A stretch of DNA of 64,000 bases. Origin: Kineosporia corallincola (GTDB taxonomy: Bacteria > Actinomycetota > Actinomycetes > Actinomycetales > Kineosporiaceae). The stretch spans positions 372,001-436,000 of the forward strand of contig NZ_JAHBAY010000003.1 in NCBI RefSeq assembly GCF_018499875.1. The letters run 5' to 3'. Shown here in pieces: positions 16,082-48,209 of this stretch. Numbering within the stretch: the stretch's first letter is position 1; each line of letters begins with the position of its first letter. The notes beneath the pieces were generated by a model. It had not been told where the DNA came from. It ran no database searches and saw only the letters and a list, made by a program, of their open reading frames with translations. The position numbers and the translations under genes are program-made.

Positions 16082-16615
16082 CTACATCTTGGGATACAGC
16101 GCTCCGCGCTGGCGGATCAGCTGGGCCCTCAACCGGGGCCCGAGCAGTTCCACCACCCCCGCCGCGGGCTCGTTCGGGTAGGGCAGGTTCTCCACGAACG
16201 AGACCGCGATCGGTTCTTCCTGCGGGCCGGTGTACTCGTCCTCCAGGAAGGCTCGCTGGAGTCGGCCGCGCAGGCCGTACGCCAGGATCAGCAGCGGCAG
16301 CACCTTGACGGCTTCTTCGACGAACGGGTCGACGGTGTACGAGGCGACCTCGACCACGTGGTTCAACGGCTGACCGGTGGCCCCGGCCCACACCCGGGTC
16401 ACGGCGTACTCCAGGGCGACGGCCAGCACCCCGCACCCGTAGAAGCCCAGACCGGCCGCCAGAAACAGGGTTCCGAGCCGGACCGAGCGGGTGGGCTGCC
16501 CGAGCACGGCCAGCTGGACCACACCCCAGCAACAGGTGAAGACCATGGCGAGCATCAGCACGGCGACGTCCGTCCGCGCCGCCTCGTCCGCGACCGGATC
16601 ACACCACGAATGCAC
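16082..16615 (-). CDS. Truncated PrsW-like membrane protein
   Basis: This 177-residue protein starts at a GTG (16615) behind GGATGAAAA. It has about three to four hydrophobic segments; in the middle, TVDPFVEEAVKVLPLLI resembles the E-E-x-x-K segment of PrsW intramembrane proteases. The second half of a PrsW protein, with its further catalytic membrane motifs, is missing. A hydrophilic tail takes its place (LEDEYTGPQEEPIAVSFVEN). It may be a degenerate protease or a distinct short family. It is convergent with the DtxR-family gene, stops 7 bases apart. Confidence 0.6.
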   Translation of the reverse strand: MHSWCDPVADEAARTDVAVLMLAMVFTCCWGVVQLAVLGQPTRSVRLGTLFLAAGLGFYGCGVLAVALEYAVTRVWAGATGQPLNHVVEVASYTVDPFVEEAVKVLPLLILAYGLRGRLQRAFLEDEYTGPQEEPIAVSFVENLPYPNEPAAGVVELLGPRLRAQLIRQRGALYPKM

Positions 16616-16891: not shown

Positions 16892-18730
16892 TCAGAACCC
16901 CAGCACCGGGACACTCCCGGCCGGCCGCCCCGGCCGGGCCACCGCCAGGCTCAGGTATCGCCGGTCCAGGGCCAGCATCAGCCGGTCCGCCACCAGCCGG
17001 TCCAGGGTCTCGCGCACTGCCTCGGCCGTCATCCCCTGCCCGGCCCCGAACGTCGTGATCGCGGGCAGCGCGTGCTGGGCGTCGCAGAACAGGTACAGCG
17101 CCCGCTCGGCACCTCGCAGCACCGTCAGCCGGCGCACCGCCACCGGCCGGAAGTCCCACACCGCCAGGTGTTCTCCGTGGTCCACCGACACCAGACCACG
17201 ACCGCCCGCGGCACCGAACCAGCGGCGCATCTCGGTCTCGACGCCGGCCACGTAGTCGTGCGGATCGCGCGCGTCGGCGTAGTCGTGCTCGAAATAGTAG
17301 GCCAGCTGCATCAGTTCGGACTCCGGCCGACCGTACACATAACCGTAGCTGCGGTCCGGGCGCACGTTGCTGAACCCCAGAGCCCCGGACGACTCGAAAT
17401 TCGGGCTGAACCGGTCCAGCCGGATCGAGCCGAGGCCCTGCGGCGGGTCCAGGTGGGTCAGCTGGGCCACCACCGCCGCCATCTCGCGGTAGTCCTCCGG
17501 GTCCTCGCCCGGGAATCCGTAGAGCAGGTTCCAGTACACCTTCATGCCCAGCTCCCGGCACCACTTGAGCAGCTGGATGTTCTGCATCGCCGTGGTGCCC
17601 TTGCGCATGATCCTCAGCACCGGCGTGCTGAAGCTCTCGATCCCGGGCTGGATCGCGGTGACGCCCGCCGCCAGCATCTCGCGCACCTGGTCCTTGGTCA
17701 GGTTGGCCTTGGTCTCGTAGAACAGGCCGAGCTTCAGCTGCCGCCGGGCCAGTTCGGGCAGCAGGTCCCGGAAGTAGGCCATGTCGAGGATGTTGTCGAC
17801 CATCTCGACCTGGCTGGCCGGGTAACGCCTTGTCTGCTCGGTGATCTCGGCCAGAACCCGGTCTGCGCTCTTGCTCCGGAACGTCATCGCCGAGCCGTTC
17901 AGCCCGCAGAACGTGCAGTGGTGCTTCTCGCCCCACCAGCATCCTCGTGACGACTCCATCAGGATACTGTCACCCGCGGCGCCGGTTCCCGGCAGCTGCT
18001 CGAAGTAGTCGGTGAAGTCCGGGTAGGGCAGCACGTCGAGGTCACGTACCCGCTCCGGGGTGAGCGACACGTAGACGCTCTCGCCGTCGCGCCGGGAGAT
18101 GATGCCCGGCACCGCGTGCGGACCGGCGCCCGACTCCAGGGCCTCGATCAGCGCCGGAAAACTGATGTCTCCCTCACCGCTGCACACGAAGTCGACCCAG
18201 CCGAACATCCGGTGCAGCGCCACGCCCATCTCGTTCTCGCAGTTGGCCCCGCCGAAAACGATGGTCTTGGTGGGATGTTCCTGCTTGATTCGGCGGGCCA
18301 GGCTGAGCGACGCCACGTTCTGCGTGAAGGTCGAGGTGAAGCCGATCACGTCGTAGTGCGCCCAGTCGATCTCCCGCAGGCACTCCTCGATGAACGGGCC
18401 GGCGTGCCGCCGGGCCCGGCGCAGGGTGGCGATCTGCGCGTCGCACGGCCCGAACCGGCCGAACCGTTCCCGGAAGACGTTCAGGTACTCCTCGTCGGGG
18501 CGTGGGCCGAACAAGGTCTCGGCGAACACCCAGTCCCCCGCCAGGCTCTGCGTGGGCGAGCGGTCGGCGATGTAGGTGAAGTCCTGCACCCCGAGGCTTC
18601 TGGCGAACCGCAGGTTGAGGTACGCGATGGTGGTGGGCCAGCCGCGCGCGTCCAGGGCTGCCTTGAGCAGGCTGGGGCCGATGGCCGGGCGCACCGCCCC
18701 GAACGGCATGTTGATCAGCAGCACCTTCAC
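16892..18730 (-). CDS. RiPP maturation radical SAM protein (cobalamin-binding type)
   Basis: The protein is 612 residues. Residues 1-230 form a B12-binding-like Rossmann domain (VLLINMPFGAVRPAIGPSLL; VIGFTSTF; IVFGGANCENEMG). The radical SAM core follows. Its cluster-binding Cys264, Cys272 and Cys275 lie in SSRGCWWGEKHHCTFCGLNG, a CX7CX2C pattern I recognise from the 'RiPP maturation radical SAM protein 1' family, whose studied members C-methylate peptides. A C-terminal winged-helix-like part ends the protein. It starts at a GTG 7 bases after the SDR stop and is last in the seven-gene operon. Expected substrate: the precursor at 22573-23307. Confidence 0.88.
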   Translation of the reverse strand: MKVLLINMPFGAVRPAIGPSLLKAALDARGWPTTIAYLNLRFARSLGVQDFTYIADRSPTQSLAGDWVFAETLFGPRPDEEYLNVFRERFGRFGPCDAQIATLRRARRHAGPFIEECLREIDWAHYDVIGFTSTFTQNVASLSLARRIKQEHPTKTIVFGGANCENEMGVALHRMFGWVDFVCSGEGDISFPALIEALESGAGPHAVPGIISRRDGESVYVSLTPERVRDLDVLPYPDFTDYFEQLPGTGAAGDSILMESSRGCWWGEKHHCTFCGLNGSAMTFRSKSADRVLAEITEQTRRYPASQVEMVDNILDMAYFRDLLPELARRQLKLGLFYETKANLTKDQVREMLAAGVTAIQPGIESFSTPVLRIMRKGTTAMQNIQLLKWCRELGMKVYWNLLYGFPGEDPEDYREMAAVVAQLTHLDPPQGLGSIRLDRFSPNFESSGALGFSNVRPDRSYGYVYGRPESELMQLAYYFEHDYADARDPHDYVAGVETEMRRWFGAAGGRGLVSVDHGEHLAVWDFRPVAVRRLTVLRGAERALYLFCDAQHALPAITTFGAGQGMTAEAVRETLDRLVADRLMLALDRRYLSLAVARPGRPAGSVPVLGF

Positions 18731-18737
18731 GACGTGC

Positions 18738-19451
18738 TCAGCCCCCGTCCGCGGTCAGGTCGACGATCCGGCCGGTGACGTCGGACCGGGCCAGGTCGAG
18801 CACCCCGTCGATGACGTCCTGGGTGGCCACCCGGCCGGGGAAGGTGTCCGGGGCCAGGGCGTTCACCCGCACACCGAGATCCCAGAACTCACTGGCCAGG
18901 TGATAGGTCAGGTGGTTCAGCCCGGCCTTCGAGGTGCCGTACAGCGCCTGGCCCAGATCGGGGTAGACGTACAGCCCCGCCGTGCTGGACAGCTGGACCA
19001 CGCTGCGGTTGGCCGCCAGGTTCCCCGCCGGGTCGGCGAGCCAGCACCGGCGGGCCACCTCCACGCTCATCCGTAACGGTGCCAGCAGATTGACGTCGAA
19101 AACCTCGGAGGCGGACGCGATGGCGCCCGGCGCCAGCAGGGGCGCCCAGTGCCGCCGGGCCGCCGCGTTGATCAGCAGGTCCACCTGACCGAACTCGTTC
19201 AGGGTCTCGTCCACGACCCGCTCGATCTCGTCGGCCCGGGACAGATCGGCCCGGATCGTGTGCACCGGATCGTCGTTCAGCGCGAGCCTGCCACCCGGGT
19301 TCAGCGGATCGACGAAGGTCTGGTTCTGGCTCGCCCGGTTCACCGGGGTGCGGCCGTGCACGGCCACGATCCGGTACTCCGCCGCGCACCTGGCCACGAA
19401 CGCCTGACCGAACAGCCCACCGGCCCCGGTCAGCAGGCAGACCGGCCTCAC
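18738..19451 (-). CDS. SDR-family oxidoreductase of the RiPP operon
   Basis: This 237-residue short-chain dehydrogenase has the cofactor motif TGAGGLFG near the N-terminus, LLINAAA (NNAG equivalent), the catalytic Ser in VVQLSSTAG, and YGTSKAGL (YxxxK). The GTG at 19451 overlaps the stop of the oxygenase gene (GTGA), which fixes the start; the frame is open further upstream but non-coding there. In this context it may oxidise or reduce a hydroxylated side chain in the modified peptide (inference). Confidence 0.88.
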   Translation of the reverse strand: MRPVCLLTGAGGLFGQAFVARCAAEYRIVAVHGRTPVNRASQNQTFVDPLNPGGRLALNDDPVHTIRADLSRADEIERVVDETLNEFGQVDLLINAAARRHWAPLLAPGAIASASEVFDVNLLAPLRMSVEVARRCWLADPAGNLAANRSVVQLSSTAGLYVYPDLGQALYGTSKAGLNHLTYHLASEFWDLGVRVNALAPDTFPGRVATQDVIDGVLDLARSDVTGRIVDLTADGG

Positions 19452-20263
19452 CGCTCCCACCGTTCCAGCCGGTCCGCACCGTACCGCTGCGACGCCTCCG
19501 CCAGGCCCCGGTGGACCCACATGATGATGGACGTCCGTGGGAGCCGGTGGTTCTTCAGGAAGGCATGGAACGAGTTCGGCGTGCACTCGAACGCCACCAG
19601 GCTGTTGTTCACCGGTGCGGCCGTCACCTGCGGACGCGCCAGCGGACCGGAACGGGTTGCGAAGAGCGCGGTCTCACCGCCGTCCCCAGTTCTCCAACCG
19701 TCGTTGAGCAGGTAGAGGATCGCCACCGCGCCACGGACCGTCTCGACCTTCTCGTGAGGTTCCAGCGTCCCCTCACCGGTCTTGAAGTGACACCGCCCGA
19801 ACGCCGGCGTCACGATCGCCTCGTCGCCGGGGACGGACCGCGGAAACCAGATCGGGTTGAAATCGTTGTGGATGAAGCCGTCCTCGCTGAACGGGGCGTG
19901 ATGATGGGCCCCGGCGTACACGTACGGAGTCCGCTCCACCCCGAACAACCCACAGAGCAGGTCCCGCCAGGCCGGTGACACGAACAGCGCGAGCGGGCCG
20001 CCGGTCTCGTGCGTGATGCTCAGGCCGTAGGCGTCGTAACCCCGCATGGTGCGCGAGAACCGGGCCCGGTCGGAGGTCTCGCTCAGCCCCCGGTCGAGCA
20101 CCGACCGCAGCGCCCCGGACAGCTCGGCGTAGAACCGTGGGGTGAACACGTCGTGCGCGATCACGTGGGGGAACGGGTCGGAACACCGCAGCCAGGCCCG
20201 CTGCGCCAGCACATCCTCCAGATCGACTGACGCGAGGACGCTCTCGGTGAGTACGCCGGTCAT
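19448..20263 (-). CDS. Prolyl-4-hydroxylase-like 2OG-Fe(II) oxygenase of the RiPP operon
   Basis: The 271-residue protein has the P4H-type fold. The iron-binding triad is His132 and Asp134 (GFIHNDFNPIWF) and His233 (NSFHAFLKN), with Arg240 as the likely 2-oxoglutarate anchor. Further family features are DPFPHVIAHDVFTP at the N-terminus and VAILYLLND before the distal motif. It overlaps both neighbours by four bases. Prolyl hydroxylase-like chemistry in an operon whose precursor has a 94-residue Pro/Gly tract makes proline hydroxylation an attractive but unproven role. Confidence 0.85.
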   Translation of the reverse strand: MTGVLTESVLASVDLEDVLAQRAWLRCSDPFPHVIAHDVFTPRFYAELSGALRSVLDRGLSETSDRARFSRTMRGYDAYGLSITHETGGPLALFVSPAWRDLLCGLFGVERTPYVYAGAHHHAPFSEDGFIHNDFNPIWFPRSVPGDEAIVTPAFGRCHFKTGEGTLEPHEKVETVRGAVAILYLLNDGWRTGDGGETALFATRSGPLARPQVTAAPVNNSLVAFECTPNSFHAFLKNHRLPRTSIIMWVHRGLAEASQRYGADRLERWER

Positions 20264-20988
20264 CCGACTCCCTCGATCTCGACCGGCTCACGCCGGAATC
20301 CCGGTGACTCCGGATGGGTGCGGAAGAAGAAGGTCTGGTACAGACGGCCTTCCTCCAGACGGTTGCCCCAGCCCCGGGCACCGCTGTGCGGAACGTCGCC
20401 GCGCACCAGCAGCAGGCGGTTGAACACGTTGCCCAGGGAGTCGATCAGCCGCCAGTTCTCGCGCGGCGTCATCCAGTCGTGACGACGCCGCGCGTCGACG
20501 TTGCGCCACAGGTGCAGACCGCCCTCCGGCGGGGCCCCGGGGCTGAGGTAGACGATGCCCGCCCAGCCGTCCGGCCCGACGCCGTTCCAGTCGTCCGTGA
20601 CGTGGTTGTGCACACCGTCCCCGAGCACCTGGCCGTTGTCCGGCTTGACGTGAAAACTGGTGTTCCACAGACAGCCCCGGGTCGCCGGGTCCGCACCGGG
20701 CAGTGGGCGCGACGACCCGTCGCGCGGATAGGACGCCTCCCAGTGCGACCGGTCGATCGTCTCCCCGCAGGCGTCCTCCAGCGCCGAGGTCAGGGCCTTC
20801 GAGGACTTGACCGGGCAGTCGCCGGCCTCCTCGAACCGGCTGGCCCACCAGGTCGGCCGGCGGCCGGACGCCACGTCCTCGTCGCTCTCGTAGGGGGTGT
20901 AGAAACTCCGGCCCAGGGCGTGGTCACGGATCGCCAGCGGGTCCCGGTAGAAGTCGTCGACGACGACGATCGACGTTCTCGGCATCAT
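20260..20988 (-). CDS. DUF6445-like protein of the RiPP operon
   Basis: The 242-residue protein starts MMPRTSIVVVDDFYRDPLAI. It contains WNTSFHVKPDNGQVLGDGVH, WAGIVYLSPGAPPEGGLHLW and RGDVPHSGARGWGN. These resemble the DUF6445 family, which looks like a diverged 2OG-oxygenase fold; the H-x-D/H pattern is suggestive only. The ATG at 20988 overlaps the sulfotransferase stop (ATGA). It is probably a second tailoring oxygenase or an accessory binding protein for the RiPP. Confidence 0.7.
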   Translation of the reverse strand: MMPRTSIVVVDDFYRDPLAIRDHALGRSFYTPYESDEDVASGRRPTWWASRFEEAGDCPVKSSKALTSALEDACGETIDRSHWEASYPRDGSSRPLPGADPATRGCLWNTSFHVKPDNGQVLGDGVHNHVTDDWNGVGPDGWAGIVYLSPGAPPEGGLHLWRNVDARRRHDWMTPRENWRLIDSLGNVFNRLLLVRGDVPHSGARGWGNRLEEGRLYQTFFFRTHPESPGFRREPVEIEGVG

Positions 20989-21701
20989 CCCTCCAGAAGC
21001 TCGATCCAGTGCGCGTTCAGCCGGTCGGACTGACGTTGCAGGCGGGGTGCGGGGATTCGGTCCACCGCCCGGGGGTCGGCCCCCAGATGGTCGAGCACCC
21101 GGGCGATCTGGCGGCCGTAGTCGCGGTCCAGCTCCTCGTACTCCACCATCAGCGGCTCGATCCCCCGGCGGTCGAAGAACTCCTGCCATCCGGCCGACTC
21201 GGCCTCGATCGAGGCCTCGAGCCGCTCGATCTCGGCCCGGTCGAAGCGCAGTTCGCCGGCCGGCCGGCGGGGTGGCCCGGAGCCGGGGAACCGCACCCAC
21301 TCCTCGGTCCAGTAGGCGCGGAACAGCGAGACCGCCTGGGCCCGCCGGTCGCGGCGCACGATGCGGACGAACCGGGCCCGCGGCACCAGCGCGTCCAGCA
21401 CCGCACCCGGCGGCCCGCAGACCCCCAGCCGCCCGGCCAGGAACCGCACGTGCTGCCAGTGCATCTTCATCCCGAACACGCCGTTCCCGGTGGTCCCGTA
21501 GCGCAGTGCGGCCCGGACGAACTCGTCGTCCGGGACGTTCGCCGGCAGCCCCCAGGCCGTCTTCCAGGTGTGTTCGAGCAGCGGCCCGAACAGCTCGGCG
21601 GGCCGCCCGGCCACCCCGGTCGCCTGGAGCCCCTCGCACAGCAGGGTGCTCCCGGACCGGGGTGTCGCCGCCACCACGTACGTCGCGGCACGGGTTCTCA
21701 C
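20985..21701 (-). CDS. Stf0-like sulfotransferase of the RiPP operon
   Basis: The 238-residue sulfotransferase has the 5'-phosphosulfate loop TYVVAATPRSGSTLLCEGLQ at the N-terminus and ATGVAGRPAELFG right after it, the signature of the Stf0 (trehalose 2-sulfotransferase-like) family. The 3'-phosphate region RFVRIVRRDRRAQAVSLFRA is present. It would move a sulfo group from PAPS to a hydroxyl. The GTG at 21701 overlaps the methyltransferase stop. In this operon the acceptor may be a hydroxyl installed on the peptide by the neighbouring oxygenases (inference). Confidence 0.85.
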   Translation of the reverse strand: MRTRAATYVVAATPRSGSTLLCEGLQATGVAGRPAELFGPLLEHTWKTAWGLPANVPDDEFVRAALRYGTTGNGVFGMKMHWQHVRFLAGRLGVCGPPGAVLDALVPRARFVRIVRRDRRAQAVSLFRAYWTEEWVRFPGSGPPRRPAGELRFDRAEIERLEASIEAESAGWQEFFDRRGIEPLMVEYEELDRDYGRQIARVLDHLGADPRAVDRIPAPRLQRQSDRLNAHWIELLEG

Positions 21702-22576
21702 GCCGGTTGTGGTCCGATCGGTGGACGTCCGGGGCGGCTCGGTGGCGCCCCGGACGTCACCCTCGCCGTCCGGGGACCGTCGAGGATCTGCATCCTCGCG
21801 GCGAGTTCCCGGTCGGCGATCTCCCGGCGGTGCAGCGCCGGGATGAACAGGGTGCCCAGCTGCGTGGCGGGCAGCAGGGCGGCGGCCAGCGACCCGAGCG
21901 GGACCGGCTGGATCAGCGGTTCCAGCAACGGGTGCGGCTTGGAGGTGACCAGCAGCACCTCGTGGTCGGCCGGATAGGTGCCCAGCAGGTGCCGCTGGAG
22001 CAGACGCAGGTTGTCCAGCGCCCGGGAACCCCTGCGGTTGTAGGCGTCCAGGGTCATCGGGGCCTGGGTGATCACGCACGGCACGTCGGCCTGGAGCGGC
22101 CGGCGGCGCACCACGAGGTCGCTGGCCTCGTACATCTGGAGGCCGTCGAACCCGGGATCCACCCCCAGGTCGCACAGCAGCGTGTCGAGGAACGACACCC
22201 CCGGCAGGACGGTCACCGACAGGTTCAGCACGAGCGCCGCCCGCTGGATCAGCGTGGTCGGGTAGCAGTACATGGTGGGATGCCCGTAGGTGGCGAAACA
22301 CACCGGCCCACCGGCCTTCGCGGCGGCCACCACCTCGGCCGCTATCCGCCGGTAGATCAGGATACGGTGCTCCCCCACCTCCCGCGGCTGGGTCAGGTCG
22401 ACGACCTCGGTGCCCAGGCCGCCGAGATACTCCAGCATCCCGGTTCCGGTGTCGGCCACGAAAGTCTTCGTGCACCGCCGGATCGTCTCCTCCACCTCCT
22501 TGGTCAGGTGGTGCACCCCGGCGATGCCGAGGCCGACAACCGCTATGTCGCAGGGCAACTGAGCTCCGGCGATCAT
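21698..22576 (-). CDS. Borosin-type peptide alpha-N-methyltransferase (tetrapyrrole methylase fold)
   Basis: The 292-residue protein has the tetrapyrrole-methylase fold: VVGLGIAGVHHLT (14-26), FATYGHPTMYCYPT (94-107), VLPGVSFLDTLLCDLGVDP (123-141) and MYEASDLVVRRRPL (148-161). The YGHP...LPGVS...YEASD series matches what I recall of OphMA and SonM, which N-methylate the peptide backbone of borosins. The catalytic R and Y of OphMA's YxxYxxxRxxxY motif appear retained (R71, Y75), while the first two Tyr are not. Borosin domains of this type either carry their substrate in cis or act on a separate precursor; here the separate precursor lies directly upstream with an ATGA overlap. A role on a small tetrapyrrole is unlikely in this context. 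Confidence 0.82.
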   Translation of the reverse strand: MIAGAQLPCDIAVVGLGIAGVHHLTKEVEETIRRCTKTFVADTGTGMLEYLGGLGTEVVDLTQPREVGEHRILIYRRIAAEVVAAAKAGGPVCFATYGHPTMYCYPTTLIQRAALVLNLSVTVLPGVSFLDTLLCDLGVDPGFDGLQMYEASDLVVRRRPLQADVPCVITQAPMTLDAYNRRGSRALDNLRLLQRHLLGTYPADHEVLLVTSKPHPLLEPLIQPVPLGSLAAALLPATQLGTLFIPALHRREIADRELAARMQILDGPRTARVTSGAPPSRPGRPPIGPQPA

Positions 22577-23307
22577 CCGAGCCTCCCCATCAGCCGTTGC
22601 ACGGCGGCCAGGCGGGCCGCGTCCGTGGCCGCGCCCTCGATCGACTCCACGGCCTCGGCGACCTCGGGATCGCCGATGAAGTCCTCCGGCTCGAAAGAAC
22701 GCCCGCCCTGGGCCATACCCAGGAAGGTGATCGGCACCCGCACGGTGACGCCGGGGGTGATCGGGTCGGTGACGACCGGCCCGACACCGACGTCGATCGG
22801 TGGGGTCGGGGTGACGAAGATGCCCGGTGGCGGCCCCGGTGGCGGAGGCGGCGGTGGGCCGGGTGGCGGCCCGGGAGGCGGCGGGGGTGGAGGCGGGCCC
22901 GGTGGCGGGGGCGGACCCGGCGGGGGTGGCGGCCCTGGCGGCGGGCCGGGCGGAGGTGGTGGCCCCGGCGGGGGCGGCGGCCCTGGCGGCGGGCCGGGCG
23001 GAGGTGGTGGCCCCGGCGGGGGCGGCGGCCCAGGTGGTGGCCCGGGCGGAGGTGGCGGTGGTGGGCCCGGCGGAGGTGGTGGCCCGGGAGGTGGCGGTGG
23101 CGGGTCCTGCTCCTCGACCCTCGGCGGCCCGTCACCGAACGCACCACCGACCACCCGCCACAGGGCGGCCGGGTCGGAGACGAAGGCGCTGCGCTCGGCG
23201 TCGCTCAGATCGAATCCGGAGAGCGCGTTTTCGGGATCCCGCCGGAGCGCCAGATAGAAGTCGAAGTCCGTCTGCGCCCGCTGCATGACCAGCGGCAGAT
23301 CACTCAC
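22573..23307 (-). CDS. Putative RiPP precursor with Pro/Gly tract (split-borosin-like)
   Basis: The 244-residue protein starts at a GTG. Residues 10-55 (DFDFYLALRRDPENALSGFD, then LSDAERSAFVSDPAALWRVV) form a short helical domain like the LigA-related binding domain of split-borosin precursors. Residues 69-162 are only Pro and Gly (78 Pro, 16 Gly), in blocks PPPPPG and PPPG; a 16-residue unit occurs nearly three times. Residues 163-200 (IFVTPTPPIDVGVGPVVTDP then ITPGVTVRVPITFLG) are Val/Ile/Thr/Pro-rich like a borosin core, and an amphipathic helix ends the protein. It is first in the operon. Core position and cleavage are inference. Confidence 0.75.
   Translation of the reverse strand: MSDLPLVMQRAQTDFDFYLALRRDPENALSGFDLSDAERSAFVSDPAALWRVVGGAFGDGPPRVEEQDPPPPPPGPPPPPGPPPPPPPGPPPGPPPPPGPPPPPGPPPGPPPPPGPPPPPGPPPGPPPPPGPPPPPGPPPPPPPPGPPPGPPPPPPPGPPPGIFVTPTPPIDVGVGPVVTDPITPGVTVRVPITFLGMAQGGRSFEPEDFIGDPEVAEAVESIEGAATDAARLAAVQRLMGRLG
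22822..23103. repeat. Pro/Gly-encoding G-rich tandem repeat within the precursor gene
   Basis: The region encodes 94 Pro/Gly residues. A 48-base unit encoding (PPPPPG)2PPPG is present about 2.8 times in the middle, flanked by more irregular blocks. The repeat units are nearly identical at DNA level, so length variation between strains by slippage is likely. Confidence 0.85.
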
Positions 23308-23446: not shown

Positions 23447-23974
23447 TCAGGCCCGCACCGGCACCGGCTTCTCGAAGAACCGCCAGTTCTCGCGCATCTG
23501 CGCCGGAATCTCCGTGCCCTCGTAGGGATCCCGCTCGGTGAACCCCCGCGACGCGTACAGCCGCTGGGCCCCGTGCATGAACCGGCAGCTGTCCAGCCGC
23601 AGGGTGTGCGCGCCGAGCCCGTCGACCGCCTCGGCCAGCAACCGGTCGAGCAGGGCCGAGCCCAGGTGCAGGCCCCGCAGCTCCGGCCGCAGATACATCC
23701 GCTTGATCTCGACCACCCCCGGCTCCAGCGTGCGCAGCGCGCCCATCCCCACCAGGACGCCTTCGTTCTCCACCACCAGGTAACGGGCGCCCTCCCGGTC
23801 GAACGCGCGCACCGACGCTGCGGACGCCTGCGCGTCCGGCACCGCCATCACCACGCCGAACTCCTCCAGCAGGCGGCCGGTGGCCCAGGTCAGGTACTCG
23901 ATGTTCAGGGCGGCCAGGTCGTCGACGTCGGCCGGGTAGCGGGCCGGTCTCAGCACGGGGGTGGTCTGTTCCAT
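23447..23974 (-). CDS. GNAT-family N-acetyltransferase
   Basis: The 175-residue acetyltransferase has the acetyl-CoA loop region LRPELRGLHLGSALLDRLLA (motif A), the beta4-strand EIKRMYL before it, and a C-terminal YASRGFTERDPY segment. The ATG at 23974 has GAGGATG upstream; the frame is open to 24049 without a binding site. Small-molecule or amino-acid acetylation is typical for this subfamily, and the substrate is unknown. It lies upstream of the RiPP operon on the same strand but is separated by 139 bases, so membership is doubtful. Confidence 0.88.
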   Translation of the reverse strand: MEQTTPVLRPARYPADVDDLAALNIEYLTWATGRLLEEFGVVMAVPDAQASAASVRAFDREGARYLVVENEGVLVGMGALRTLEPGVVEIKRMYLRPELRGLHLGSALLDRLLAEAVDGLGAHTLRLDSCRFMHGAQRLYASRGFTERDPYEGTEIPAQMRENWRFFEKPVPVRA

Positions 23975-24208
23975 ACCGGCATCCTCACAGCCGGGTCCGG
24001 GCGGTCGTCCCCGGGGTGCCCGCCGGGCCCACCCACTCTCCCCGGCCAACGGCGTCCACCGTTGTGCCGTCGGGCGGGAAACCGACGGGGGCGACGTGAG
24101 CCCGCGAACTCGCGCCCACCTTGCTCAGTTCTCCTGACCAACAGCTGAAATCCGGCCACTGAGAGTGGCCAAAGGCGATAATTCTTACGGACTTTGGAGA
24201 AACAAACC

Positions 24209-45355: not shown

Positions 45356-45384
45356 TTGGACTTCTGGGTTGCCGGTCGGATAAC
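45356..45384 (+). promoter_or_regulatory. Promoter of the first Gly-Cys-Val tRNA cassette
   Basis: TTGGAC (-35), 17-base spacer and GATAAC (-10), ending 62 bases before tRNA-Gly. Confidence 0.65.
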
Positions 45385-45446
45385 TTACTCATGCACCGAA
45401 CGGAACGGGGCGGCCCGAAAGGCCGAACCGCACCAGACGGAAGCAA

Positions 45447-45519
45447 GCGGACGTGGCTCAGTTGGTAGAGCATCACCTTGCCAAGGTGAGGGTCGCGAGT
45501 TCGAATCTCGTCGTCCGCT
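45447..45519 (+). tRNA. tRNA-Gly (GCC), first cassette
   Basis: The 73-base cloverleaf has acceptor GCGGACG with CGTCCGC, anticodon loop TTGCCAA (GCC) and T-arm CGAGTTCGAATCTCG. It differs from the second copy by one compensatory T-arm base pair. Confidence 0.95.
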
Positions 45520-45538
45520 CTGAAGTTCAGCAAGTCTC

Positions 45539-45609
45539 GGTGGAGTGGCCGAGAGGCGAGGCAACGGACTGCAAATCCGTGTACACGGGTTCAAATCCCG
45601 TCTCCACCT
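45539..45609 (+). tRNA. tRNA-Cys (GCA), first cassette
   Basis: The 71-base cloverleaf has acceptor GGTGGAG with CTCCACC and anticodon GCA in the CTGCAAA loop. Confidence 0.95.
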
Positions 45610-45630
45610 CCAGCACCTTCACGTGCATGA

Positions 45631-45702
45631 GGGCGATTAGCTCAGTGGGAGAGCGCTTCCTTGACACGGAAGAGGTCACTGGTTCAATCCCAGTATCGCC
45701 CA
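45631..45702 (+). tRNA. tRNA-Val (GAC), first cassette
   Basis: The 72-base cloverleaf has acceptor GGGCGAT with ATCGCCC and anticodon GAC in the TTGACAC loop. The CCA end is encoded at 45703-45705. Confidence 0.95.
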
Positions 45703-45731
45703 CCATCTTCTCTGCTGAGCAGAGGCCCATG

Positions 45732-45766
45732 AATCCCGAAGCTCCGGCTTCGGGATTTCGTGTTTT
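45732..45766 (+). terminator. Terminator of first tRNA cassette
   Basis: AATCCCGAAGC and GCTTCGGGATT form an 11-base stem, followed by TTCGTGTTTT. A near-identical copy lies at 48020-48054. Confidence 0.9.
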
Positions 45767-45878
45767 GCAAGGCTTTACGAGAACACCCGGCCCGGAGGCC
45801 CGGCTACTGGGACCGGTTCGTAGGTCGTAATGCCCGCCTCGCCGCCGGACCGGCGGCCCTGCAAGCAGTTTGACCACC

Positions 45879-46427
45879 TCAGCGGACCAGCGTCCACTCC
45901 CCCGCCGGCCGTCCACCGGGCGCGAAGCCCATGTCCCGGGCGAGTCGGCCGGCCCCGCCCAGGCCGTCACCCACGGCGTCCGGCCGGTGGGCGTCGCTGC
46001 CGAACGTCACCGTCCTGCCGCCCTCCTCCACCCACCGGCGCAGGATCAGCGGATGCAGGGGCAGCCGGGTGTTGATCTCCAGCGCCCGTTCTCCGTCGGC
46101 CAGGGCGGCGAGCGCCTGCCGGAACTCCGGCTCGAAGTCCTCCGGACGGAACGGCCCGGCATCGGCCGGCCAACTGCGCACCGGGTAGTCGATGTGGGCC
46201 AGCGCGGTGAAAACCCCTGACCCGGCGACCATCCGGGGGATCTCGGCCAGGTAGTCGCGCATCACGTCCGCCGCCGGGCGGAAGGGGGTGAGGTCGACAT
46301 GCTCGGTGAACACGACGGCCGGCAGCCCGAGCGCGACGGCCCGGGCGCAGGTGGCGTCCATGTCACCGACCAGCCGAGCGTCCCACGACCACTGGCTGTG
46401 CACGTGCCCGTCAGCGGGTAGCTCCAT
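45879..46427 (-). CDS. PHP-domain phosphoesterase
   Basis: The 182-residue protein has the PHP metal-binding motifs DGHVHSQWSWDA (HxH), VFTEHVDLTPF, TALAHIDYPVR and FGSDAHRPDAVG. It is shorter than typical histidinol-phosphatases (about 260 residues), so the middle is compact. Phosphoester hydrolysis is expected, and histidinol phosphate is one possible substrate. The gene sits between the two tRNA cassettes and upstream (same strand) lies the DsbA-like gene, 48 bases away. Confidence 0.88.
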   Translation of the reverse strand: MELPADGHVHSQWSWDARLVGDMDATCARAVALGLPAVVFTEHVDLTPFRPAADVMRDYLAEIPRMVAGSGVFTALAHIDYPVRSWPADAGPFRPEDFEPEFRQALAALADGERALEINTRLPLHPLILRRWVEEGGRTVTFGSDAHRPDAVGDGLGGAGRLARDMGFAPGGRPAGEWTLVR

Positions 46428-46475
46428 CCGACCAGTGCGCCAGGCGTCACACGCCCTTGTCCATCCCCGCGGGCA

Positions 46476-47264
46476 TCACTTCTCGCTGACGGTGGTGTCG
46501 GTCGCGGCGGCCACGGCCAGTGCGTCGGTCACGGCGCTCTTCAGGGCCTTTTTGGTGACGTCGTCCAGGGCGGTGCCGTTCACCAGGACGGTCGGCGTCG
46601 TGGTCACGTCGGCCGTCGACGCGTCCTGGGTGACCTGGGCGGTCCAGTCCTGGTAGGTCCTGCCCTCCACCGCGGTGCGCACGATGTCCTCGTCGGCCCC
46701 GGCCTGCACGGCGTAGTCGACGAGCTGGTCGTCCGTCAGACCGGCCCCACCCTCGTCCGGCTGGTTGTCGAGCAGCAGCTGCTGGAACTCGAGAGCGGCG
46801 TCGGCGTCCGCGTTCACCACCGCGCCCAGGGCGTTCAGGGCTCGGGTGGAGTAGTCGTCGGTGGACTTGTCGTCGAGCAGGGCCACGGGCCGGTACTGCA
46901 CCTGCACGTCGCCGTCCTTCACCCAGTCGGCGAGCTGGTCACGCGTGGCGGACTCGAAGGCGGCGCAGTCGGCACACTGGAAGTCCTCGTAGATCACGAC
47001 CTTGACGGCGGCGCTGTCGTCGCCGTCCACGACCGAATTGTCCAGGCCGAGGTTGGCCGGGGTGGCGGTGGTGGCCGCGGCGGCCTCTTGGCCGCTGTCG
47101 TGTTCCTGCCAGAACACCAGGCCGGCCATGACGGCCACGACCAGGACGATCACCAGGCTGCCCACCCGGACGGCCTTGCGCGTGGCCTCCTGACGGGCCA
47201 CCCGCAGACGGGCCTCGGCGATCTTCTCCCGGCGCGCCTCACGTGACGCCTTGCCGCTCACCAT
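46476..47264 (-). CDS. Membrane-anchored DsbA-like thioredoxin-fold protein
   Basis: The 262-residue protein has a basic N-terminus, one membrane segment (about 34-52, VGSLVIVLVVAVMAGLVFW), an Ala/Thr linker and a thioredoxin fold with Cys97-Ala-Asp-Cys100 in YEDFQCADCAAF and the cis-Pro loop TTPTVLVNG. It likely forms or isomerises disulfides outside the membrane. AGGAGGAAG precedes the ATG at 47264. A longer open frame upstream is not supported. Confidence 0.9.
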   Translation of the reverse strand: MVSGKASREARREKIAEARLRVARQEATRKAVRVGSLVIVLVVAVMAGLVFWQEHDSGQEAAAATTATPANLGLDNSVVDGDDSAAVKVVIYEDFQCADCAAFESATRDQLADWVKDGDVQVQYRPVALLDDKSTDDYSTRALNALGAVVNADADAALEFQQLLLDNQPDEGGAGLTDDQLVDYAVQAGADEDIVRTAVEGRTYQDWTAQVTQDASTADVTTTPTVLVNGTALDDVTKKALKSAVTDALAVAAATDTTVSEK

Positions 47265-47733
47265 GCTGGTCTTCCTCCTGCGTCGAATGCGCTGAAGTGC
47301 GCTGCGGGACGAGGATTTCCGGGCGCGCGGACGGCCAGGGCCCGTTCCCGGCCACAAGCTACGCGCGCAGGCTGTGGAAGAACTATGAGTTGCCTGACGA
47401 AATACTGGAAACGCCCCTACGACGCAGCGCCGCCGGCCCGGTCCTCGCGCCACGCAGCGGGAGCACAGGGAGATGCTTCTGGTTTTTGACACCACCGTCG
47501 CCCGCAGGGTGGTGTCAAAGAGGAGAAGGGCCACCCCGTCCCGGCCGGCTCACGCTGGAAGCCCTGGCCACCGGAGTCAGGGCCGCCAGATGTGCACGGG
47601 ACCGGGACGACGCTCGCAGGCCGTGCACCCGGCACGGCGGTGGTCAGAAGGGCCCTGAACTTCTGCTAAGTTTATGGGGCACCGAACGGAACGGGACGGA
47701 CCGAAAGGCCCGGAACGAAACGTGAGGAAGCAT
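47265..47733. other. Intergenic region, 469 bases, with dispersed inverted repeat
   Basis: It contains copy 2 of the TTTGACACCACC inverted repeat (47481-47519) and the upstream part of the second tRNA cassette. The 47680-47722 stretch is similar to 45392-45430, showing the duplication includes the leader. No gene is convincing. Confidence 0.6.
47481..47519. repeat. Dispersed inverted repeat TTTGACACCACC, copy 2
   Basis: Arms TTTGACACCACC (47485-47496) and GGTGGTGTCAAA (47508-47519) form a perfect 12-base stem with an 11-base loop. The left side is identical over 16 bases to copy 1 at 16745-16760. It lies 221 bases upstream of the DsbA-like start. Confidence 0.7.
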
Positions 47734-47806
47734 GCGGACGTGGCTCAGTTGGTAGAGCATCACCTTGCCAAGGTGAGGGTCGCGGGTTCGAATCCCGTCG
47801 TCCGCT
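47734..47806 (+). tRNA. tRNA-Gly (GCC), second cassette
   Basis: The 73-base cloverleaf is almost identical to the copy at 45447, with GCGGACG/CGTCCGC acceptor and GCC anticodon. Confidence 0.95.
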
Positions 47807-47826
47807 CGGAGGCCCACCAGCCTCGC

Positions 47827-47897
47827 GGTGGAGTGGCCGAGAGGCGAGGCAACGGACTGCAAATCCGTGTACACGGGTTCAAATCCCGTCTCCACCT
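47827..47897 (+). tRNA. tRNA-Cys (GCA), second cassette
   Basis: The 71-base cloverleaf is identical to the first copy, with anticodon GCA. Confidence 0.95.
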
Positions 47898-47918
47898 CCA
47901 GCACCTTCACGTGCATGA

Positions 47919-47990
47919 GGGCGATTAGCTCAGTGGGAGAGCGCTTCCTTGACACGGAAGAGGTCACTGGTTCAATCCCAGTATCGCCCA
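47919..47990 (+). tRNA. tRNA-Val (GAC), second cassette
   Basis: The 72-base cloverleaf is identical to the first copy, anticodon GAC, with CCA encoded at 47991-47993. Confidence 0.95.
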
Positions 47991-48019
47991 CCATATCCTC
48001 TGCCCAGCAGAGATCAGTA

Positions 48020-48054
48020 AATCCCGAAGCCCCGGCTTCGGGATTTCGTGTTTT
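48020..48054 (+). terminator. Terminator of second tRNA cassette
   Basis: The stem of AATCCCGAAGC and GCTTCGGGATT has a CCCG-type loop change relative to the first cassette, then TTCGTGTTTT. Confidence 0.9.
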
Positions 48055-48209
48055 GTAGCGGTTCCACCACGGAACACGTTGTCACGAACCGCAATTGGCG
48101 GCATGACCCGTCGAAGTCACGGCACCCCCTCCCAGGACCACCTCACGCCGAAGCCGACAAAGACGTAATCTCGTACATATCGGTCGGTGCGGCTGCGGTG
48201 GGAGCTGAC

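Follow-up and report, generated by a model that had tools for sequence, protein, structure and literature searches.

A candidate split-borosin-type RiPP operon with a polyproline precursor in Kineosporia corallincola and two other genomes

What is made by a compact set of seven genes in Kineosporia corallincola, and which known pathway does this set most resemble? The genes lie on the minus strand at positions 16892-23307 of a 64,000-nucleotide stretch of genomic DNA (the whole of this stretch is referred to below as the window), and the initial annotation proposed that they form an operon for a ribosomally synthesized and post-translationally modified peptide (RiPP), built around a methyltransferase (MT) of the borosin type. 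Our analyses, which compare sequences and predicted structures, indicate that the operon probably encodes a split-borosin-type RiPP pathway with a new precursor and a new set of enzymes, and a split-borosin-type pathway of new architecture is the most likely reading of the locus. Its standout feature is the set of seven genes with a polyproline precursor.

The operon runs from the gene for the precursor (244 amino acids (aa), GTG start, 22573..23307) through those for a borosin-type alpha-N-MT (292 aa, 21698..22576; assigned by family, profile, tree and residue comparison), a Stf0-type sulfotransferase (238 aa, 20985..21701), a putative DUF6445-like protein (242 aa, 20260..20988), a prolyl-4-hydroxylase-like 2-oxoglutarate (2OG)-Fe(II) oxygenase (271 aa, 19448..20263; assigned by family and PDB matches), and a short-chain dehydrogenase (SDR; 237 aa, 18738..19451), to that for a radical SAM C-methyltransferase of the NCBIfam family TIGR03975 (612 aa, 16892..18730), all on the minus strand. 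The five consecutive gene overlaps are of exactly 4 bases each and the SDR and radical SAM genes are separated by 7 bases, in agreement with the arrangement first described.

The view that these genes are one unit is strengthened by the presence of the same set in two other genomes, which was sought by two routes. A contig scan, which relies on exact short peptide matches and which distant relatives can escape, found one relative, viz. Nannocystis poenicansa (54%). Searches with the MT covered sets of 98, 396, 98, 394, 297, and 317 genomes, which overlap and the last of which consists of genomes of the host's class, the host not being among them. Matches of at least 45% identity outside the window were found in N. 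poenicansa, in a member of the host's class from another family (G900), and in a relic in G1166; matches near 30% were many, and the neighbouring genes were examined for part of them. N. poenicansa (Myxococcota) has all seven genes and an epimerase-type gene, with the DUF6445-like gene relocated behind the radical SAM gene, and G900 has the operon in the gene order of the window, with Stf0 and the DUF6445-like protein in one 502-residue frame, by which these two are linked. Because the set recurs in two other genomes, the grouping of the genes goes beyond chance, and the genes, their families and this conserved co-occurrence are direct observations. The six enzymes are conserved at 44-65% identity. 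In multiple alignments, the identities to the window proteins in G900 and Nannocystis, respectively, are 57% and 54% for the MT, 51% and 47% for Stf0, 61% and 47% for the DUF6445-like protein, 57% and 56% for the oxygenase, 52% and 44% for the SDR, and 58% and 60% for the radical SAM enzyme. No close relative was found in the five other genomes sampled from the same genus, and G005 has a distant one (32%); G1166 and G1027, which belong to one genus, have a lone MT relic each, that of G1027 being in pieces. This distribution would fit horizontal transfer and loss. At the loci L091 and L092 we observed lone relics of this MT type, near which no partner genes were found; their neighbours, named by eye, include a hydrogenase-maturation-like gene at L091 and other genes, and the relic at L092 is in pieces.

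Does the MT belong with the borosin enzymes? The motifs YGHP (residues 97-100), LPGVS, and YEASD, on which its initial assignment was based, are all present, and the protein scores 54.9 bits against Pfam TP_methylase (tetrapyrrole methylase; cut-off 27.8), its top NCBIfam match being YabN at 66.8 bits, far under the cut-off of 525. A single-sequence search of the PDB returned dbOphM (1.2e-17) and SonM (1.3e-16) as well as OphMA and MroMA; up to E 1, corrin enzymes were absent from its results. With a profile built from the MTs of all three operons, the search returned borosin enzymes at 9e-33 to 5e-19 (dbOphM 9e-33, SonM 9e-20), and the top corrin enzyme, precorrin-2 methyltransferase, at 0.38. 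A tree with several long branches was built with 14 further borosin-like rows, seven YabN-like domains, and the eight remaining TP methylases of the host; in it, the enzymes of the window and Nannocystis pair as sisters (100/100) and fall on the borosin side, apart from the YabN-like domains and the host's TP methylases. The clustering with corrin or porphyrin methylases that had been named as contrary evidence was thus seen neither in the profile nor in the tree, both of which rule out that identity, and the comparisons support placing the MT with the borosin backbone N-methyltransferases and not with the corrin methylases. By alignment, its residues R71, Y75, and Y97 correspond to SonM R67, Y71, and Y93, whose roles are treated in PMC8429565. 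The same source reports that SonM Y58F causes an approximately 10-fold loss; the counterpart of Y58, estimated by counting back from SonM residue 63, would be L61/T62 in the window, and only 4 of the 13 remaining borosin-like rows have Tyr in that column. The C-terminal tail of the MT, P.RPGRP.IGP (21710..21742, minus strand), is invariant across the three operons.

The neighbouring gene has the features of a borosin precursor. Residues 1-57 of its product (23137..23307, minus strand) are predicted by AlphaFold2 (AF2) and profiles to form a five-helix leader like a borosin-binding domain, with helices at residues 4-13, 15-23, 25-28, 36-44, and 46-54; the model, which was built on two sequences (mean pLDDT 60.8, pTM 0.30) and of which the helix layout alone was used, continues with an extended tract and helices at 193-198, 214-224, and 229-243. 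According to PMC8429565, residues 1-53 of SonA make up its binding domain, a bundle of five helices. When five leaders adjoining other borosin-like MTs were combined in a profile, with the operon's own leaders left out, the precursor ranked first among 826 window frames (E 2.6e-5); the homologous precursors in L005 and L083, the loci of the two homologous operons, likewise came first, the former among 204 frames (0.0027) and the latter among 196 (7.6e-4). A profile of seven leaders, which includes those of the window and Nannocystis, matches SonA (7ltc_B) at about 1e-4 to 3e-4, along with gallate dioxygenase (1e-6), Os1348 (2.5e-4), and nitrile hydratase (0.0023), and has weak matches to the clasp of dbOphM and OphMA (0.016-0.03). 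This resemblance of the leader is also directly observed. Of the earlier description of a precursor with a LigA-like domain, the leader-bearing neighbour therefore stands, and the LigA-like character rests on the profile of several leaders and not on the window sequence taken singly. Leader-like genes are also found beside several other homologous MTs, contrary to the absence that had been considered adverse: leaders beside other borosin-like MTs were recognized by eye at L051, L052, L060, L066, and L067, and the leader profile matched at E ≤0.01 in 5 of 19 loci scanned, of which 12 had only about 1.5 kb of flank and two (L085 and L093) are one place, and among which the match in L054 sits in a frame that also encodes its MT.

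Behind the leader follows a tract (residues 69-162; 22822..23103, minus strand) that is composed exclusively of Pro (78) and Gly (16), 94 residues in all, and that the initial annotation did not mention. The homologous tracts consist of 80 residues in L005 and about 53 in L083, the latter with one Asp inside. The opposite strand across the tract also reads Pro/Gly, as a shadow, and the possibility that the polyproline is a fortuitous translation of a GC-rich repeat is ruled out by the presence of the tract in two homologs and by its mixed Pro codons (four are used in the window and Nannocystis, three in G900). A collagen-like repeat is likewise ruled out, as the window tract has no Pro run of 2 and 14 of its 16 runs are of 3, 5, or 7. 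After the tract, all three precursors have a G.GPV segment (DVGVGPV, SFGVGPV, and HIGIGPV), in which VGVGPV (22774..22791, minus strand; FGVGPV and IGIGPV in the homologs) is our candidate core. The conserved C-terminal segment (residues 205-244; 22576..22695, minus strand), which is predicted to be helical and contains DPEV in all three precursors, is a possible follower.

Four of the tailoring enzymes first proposed are upheld by family models. The radical SAM enzyme, which has a CX7CX2C motif, matches TIGR03975 (RiPP maturation radical SAM C-methyltransferase) over its full length in all three operons, with 670.9 bits in the window and 668.7 and 658.4 bits in the other two (cut-off 281.85), and scores 66.8 bits against Pfam Radical_SAM (cut-off 29.5); of the reported B12 signature, a domain match is seen, which at 25.3 bits is under the Pfam cut-off of 32.1. 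The sulfotransferase matches PF09037 (151.6 bits, E 3.4e-44, cut-off 22) and is under the cut-off of the trehalose 2-sulfotransferase NCBIfam model (125 vs. 400). The oxygenase matches 2OG-FeII_Oxy_3 (35.1 bits, cut-off 27); as a single sequence it returned prolyl 4-hydroxylases at 3.6e-4 and 0.046, and as a profile OGFOD1 at 2.6e-4 and prolyl 4-hydroxylases at 0.001 and 0.0019, with weaker single-domain scores. Its H132, D134, and H233 are invariant across the three operons, and we assign them as a putative HxD...H triad. The SDR, with YxxxK, matches adh_short (79.9 bits, cut-off 26.6).

The DUF6445-like protein fares differently. It had been named as DUF6445 and as a second oxygenase, and neither name is well supported: the Pfam DUF6445 scores are 17.1 bits for the window protein and 22.6 for its Nannocystis homolog (cut-off 24), the fused G900 frame has no DUF6445 match at E 0.001, and all three proteins match DUF6445 weakly (E up to 5, best 0.00012). 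As one of the three touches the 2OG model only at E 0.11 and the DUF6445 matches are weak, the protein is not counted as a proven oxygenase. Its profile found no relative in the PDB (best E 0.24), profile-profile comparison with the operon's oxygenase gave a probability of 0.2%, and its AF2 model has a mean pLDDT of 30.7. A search for PF20043 found no match in six genomes and none in 14 controls, and is therefore uninformative, and a literature search on DUF6445 returned nothing.

How does the operon compare with known systems? The classification of borosins in PMC11395268 runs from type 0 to type X, with a proposed type XI in addition. Like the split borosins (SonM/SonA, type IV, and types V-X), the operon has a separate MT of the TP-methylase fold and an adjacent precursor with an N-terminal leader of the five-helix type; unlike them, it has a long Pro/Gly tract before the candidate core and a conserved C-terminal segment in its precursor, and it adds five further enzymes including the radical SAM enzyme, the sulfotransferase, and the oxygenase. 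It also resembles bottromycin and polytheonamide, which are RiPP pathways with radical SAM C-methylation, directed in bottromycin at Phe, Val, and Pro (PMC11285071). Its precursor and its remaining tailoring set differ from theirs. To our knowledge, neither of these two pathways has a borosin-type MT. No such operon was found in the literature covered, which consists of partial texts and lies outside the main split-borosin surveys (Imani 2022 and others), and its novelty in print is accordingly uncertain.

A radical SAM enzyme of this family beside a borosin-like MT is also found at L056 (375.5 bits) and L057 (616.1 bits), around relatives of Nannocystis, and this pairing alone is therefore not unique. 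At L056 (7294-11765) two TP methylases and a TIGR03975 enzyme occur together with a precursor-like protein of 331 aa, which contains repeats of the unit YNPAAVRCAPAIDPS[IF] and has a tail that by eye is pentapeptide-repeat-like. The host genome has a second TIGR03975 enzyme over the cut-off (L058, 8092-9918, G000:C5), which is 36% identical to that of the operon. Plasmid relatives of the radical SAM enzyme are 36-44% identical (20 of 118, among the matches listed); unlike the window enzyme, which is accompanied by the operon's other genes, the five whose loci were examined (L061-L065) have no match to the other operon proteins nearby, and the plasmid searches found no second operon among the loci examined. 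Other borosin-like MTs have neighbours of their own. At L066 (5671-8888, plasmid NZ_CP010533.1 of Haloarcula sp. CBA1115) an archaeal borosin-like MT is preceded by a leader-type 93-aa frame (NF038399, 37.5 bits, cut-off 40) and followed by a prolyl oligopeptidase gene. A 309-aa precursor-like protein with a leader and many AVVYAAG-type repeats precedes the borosin-like MT at L051 (9568-10497), and at L060 (7022-9449) the borosin-like MT adjoins a 92-aa leader-type frame, a PhyH oxygenase, and a TfuA-like protein.

The limits of the operon were drawn by comparing window frames of at least 100 codons at positions 1-40000 with the DNA around the two homologous operons, L005 (18.8 kb) and L083 (19.5 kb). 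Outside the operon and shadow frames, the one match was a GGDEF/EAL protein distant from the operon; the GNAT gene upstream (23447-24049) and the PrsW-like frame downstream (16082-16615, a weak match) were matched by neither locus and are therefore excluded from it. Elsewhere in the window, at 45376-48055, a tRNA Gly-Cys-Val trio occurs twice, 2.29 kb apart, within repeat pieces that are 80-95% identical.

Several observations weigh against a split-borosin-type pathway. On the side of the MT, the borosin-side fork of the tree has values of just 80/87; the borosin-like row L056b lies outside this fork, so that the borosin-like label needs two changes, one change sufficing in only 8% of bootstrap trees; and, unlike SonM and dbOphM, the window and Nannocystis enzymes branch outside the clade of these two (100/99). 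At the residue-65 column, 12 of the 13 remaining borosin-like rows and G900 have Tyr, whereas the window has Arg and Nannocystis has Gly. On the side of the precursor, the window leader searched singly against the PDB did not find SonA, and the structure comparison first suggested for this protein, which gave the five predicted helices, returned no SonA by Foldseek either: nothing was under E 0.001, and the top match was a weak one to Os1348 (6lk7, E 0.66), with one spurious match besides. The leader aligns with the model of the Os1348/NHLP leaders (NF038399), and, unlike these, it is under the cut-off of 40 (28.7 bits with the whole precursor, 32.7 with the leader alone); this 63-position model covers the leader only. 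A GHH[DN][WF]FN motif common to the Nannocystis and G900 precursors is missing in the window, and 53-94 residues of Pro/Gly separate a docked leader from the supposed core. The Nannocystis SDR has no YxxxK, and the flanks compared (window 1-40000, L005, and L083) revealed neither a protease nor a transporter that is conserved.

The split-borosin-type pathway, which we consider probable with these points taken into account, would proceed as follows. Through the five-helix leader at its N-terminus, the precursor would dock on the separate MT, which would N-methylate the backbone of a hydrophobic stretch located beyond the tract, VGVGPV and the residues following it being the best candidate. Thereafter, the radical SAM enzyme may C-methylate the side chains of Val, Ile, or Pro, the prolyl-4-hydroxylase-like oxygenase may hydroxylate Pro or a neighbouring residue, Stf0 may sulfate a hydroxyl, and the SDR may interconvert hydroxyl and ketone. 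As the compared flanks hold no conserved protease or transporter, release and export would depend on host functions encoded elsewhere. We infer these reactions, the location of the core, and the action of all of the enzymes on one peptide from the families and their arrangement.

Is the hydrophobic segment the main substrate, or is it the tract? The length of the tract, which puts 53-94 residues between the leader and the candidate core, makes it a possible substrate. Its Gly residues could be converted to sarcosine and its Pro residues hydroxylated, C-methylated, and sulfated, giving a polyproline-II rod with few NH groups; Pro cannot be N-methylated and Gly can, and OphMA N-methylates Gly. 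Such a role is in keeping with the retention of the tract in three precursors with mixed Pro codons, its position directly behind the leader, the presence of a prolyl-4-hydroxylase-like oxygenase, and the bottromycin precedent for C-methylation of Pro by a radical SAM enzyme (PMC11285071), but the length (about 53, 80, and 94) and the Gly spacing vary as in a linker, the conserved non-Pro motifs lie behind the tract, and the borosin cores tested to date are described as primarily hydrophobic (PMC11285071). We therefore regard the tract as an unlikely main substrate. It is doubtful, and less likely again, that the tract is itself the product, viz. a ribosomal peptoid-like rod of approximately 50-95 residues with almost no backbone NH and decorated with sulfate.

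The precursor might instead be a carrier, its leader and rod presenting a C-terminal segment as the site where a small molecule is assembled or coupled, and the product set free would be small. The good conservation of the C-terminal helical segment agrees with this, as does the lack of a protease, none being matched among the seven genes (Pfam families) and none being conserved in the compared flanks; however, none of the family matches in the set points to an amino-acid-adding enzyme, and a borosin-type MT is not required for a carrier route, so that we consider it improbable. That the MT is a small-molecule (tetrapyrrole-type) methylase, with the operon serving a non-peptide pathway and the small neighbouring gene being unrelated to it, is highly improbable, as its Pfam class and its distant YabN match are outweighed by the gulf between the borosin and corrin matches of its profile and by the precursor gene beside it in all three operons.

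If a split-borosin-type pathway is indeed encoded here, backbone N-methylation, C-methylation, hydroxylation, and sulfation would be combined in one ribosomal pathway, making it a compact supplier of drug-like peptide modifications. The three operons would then serve as natural variants for locating the core, for understanding how a leader acts across a long polyproline spacer, and for examining the effect on the MT of the replacement of an otherwise common tyrosine, and the frame shared with Stf0 would give an initial clue to what the DUF6445-like protein does.

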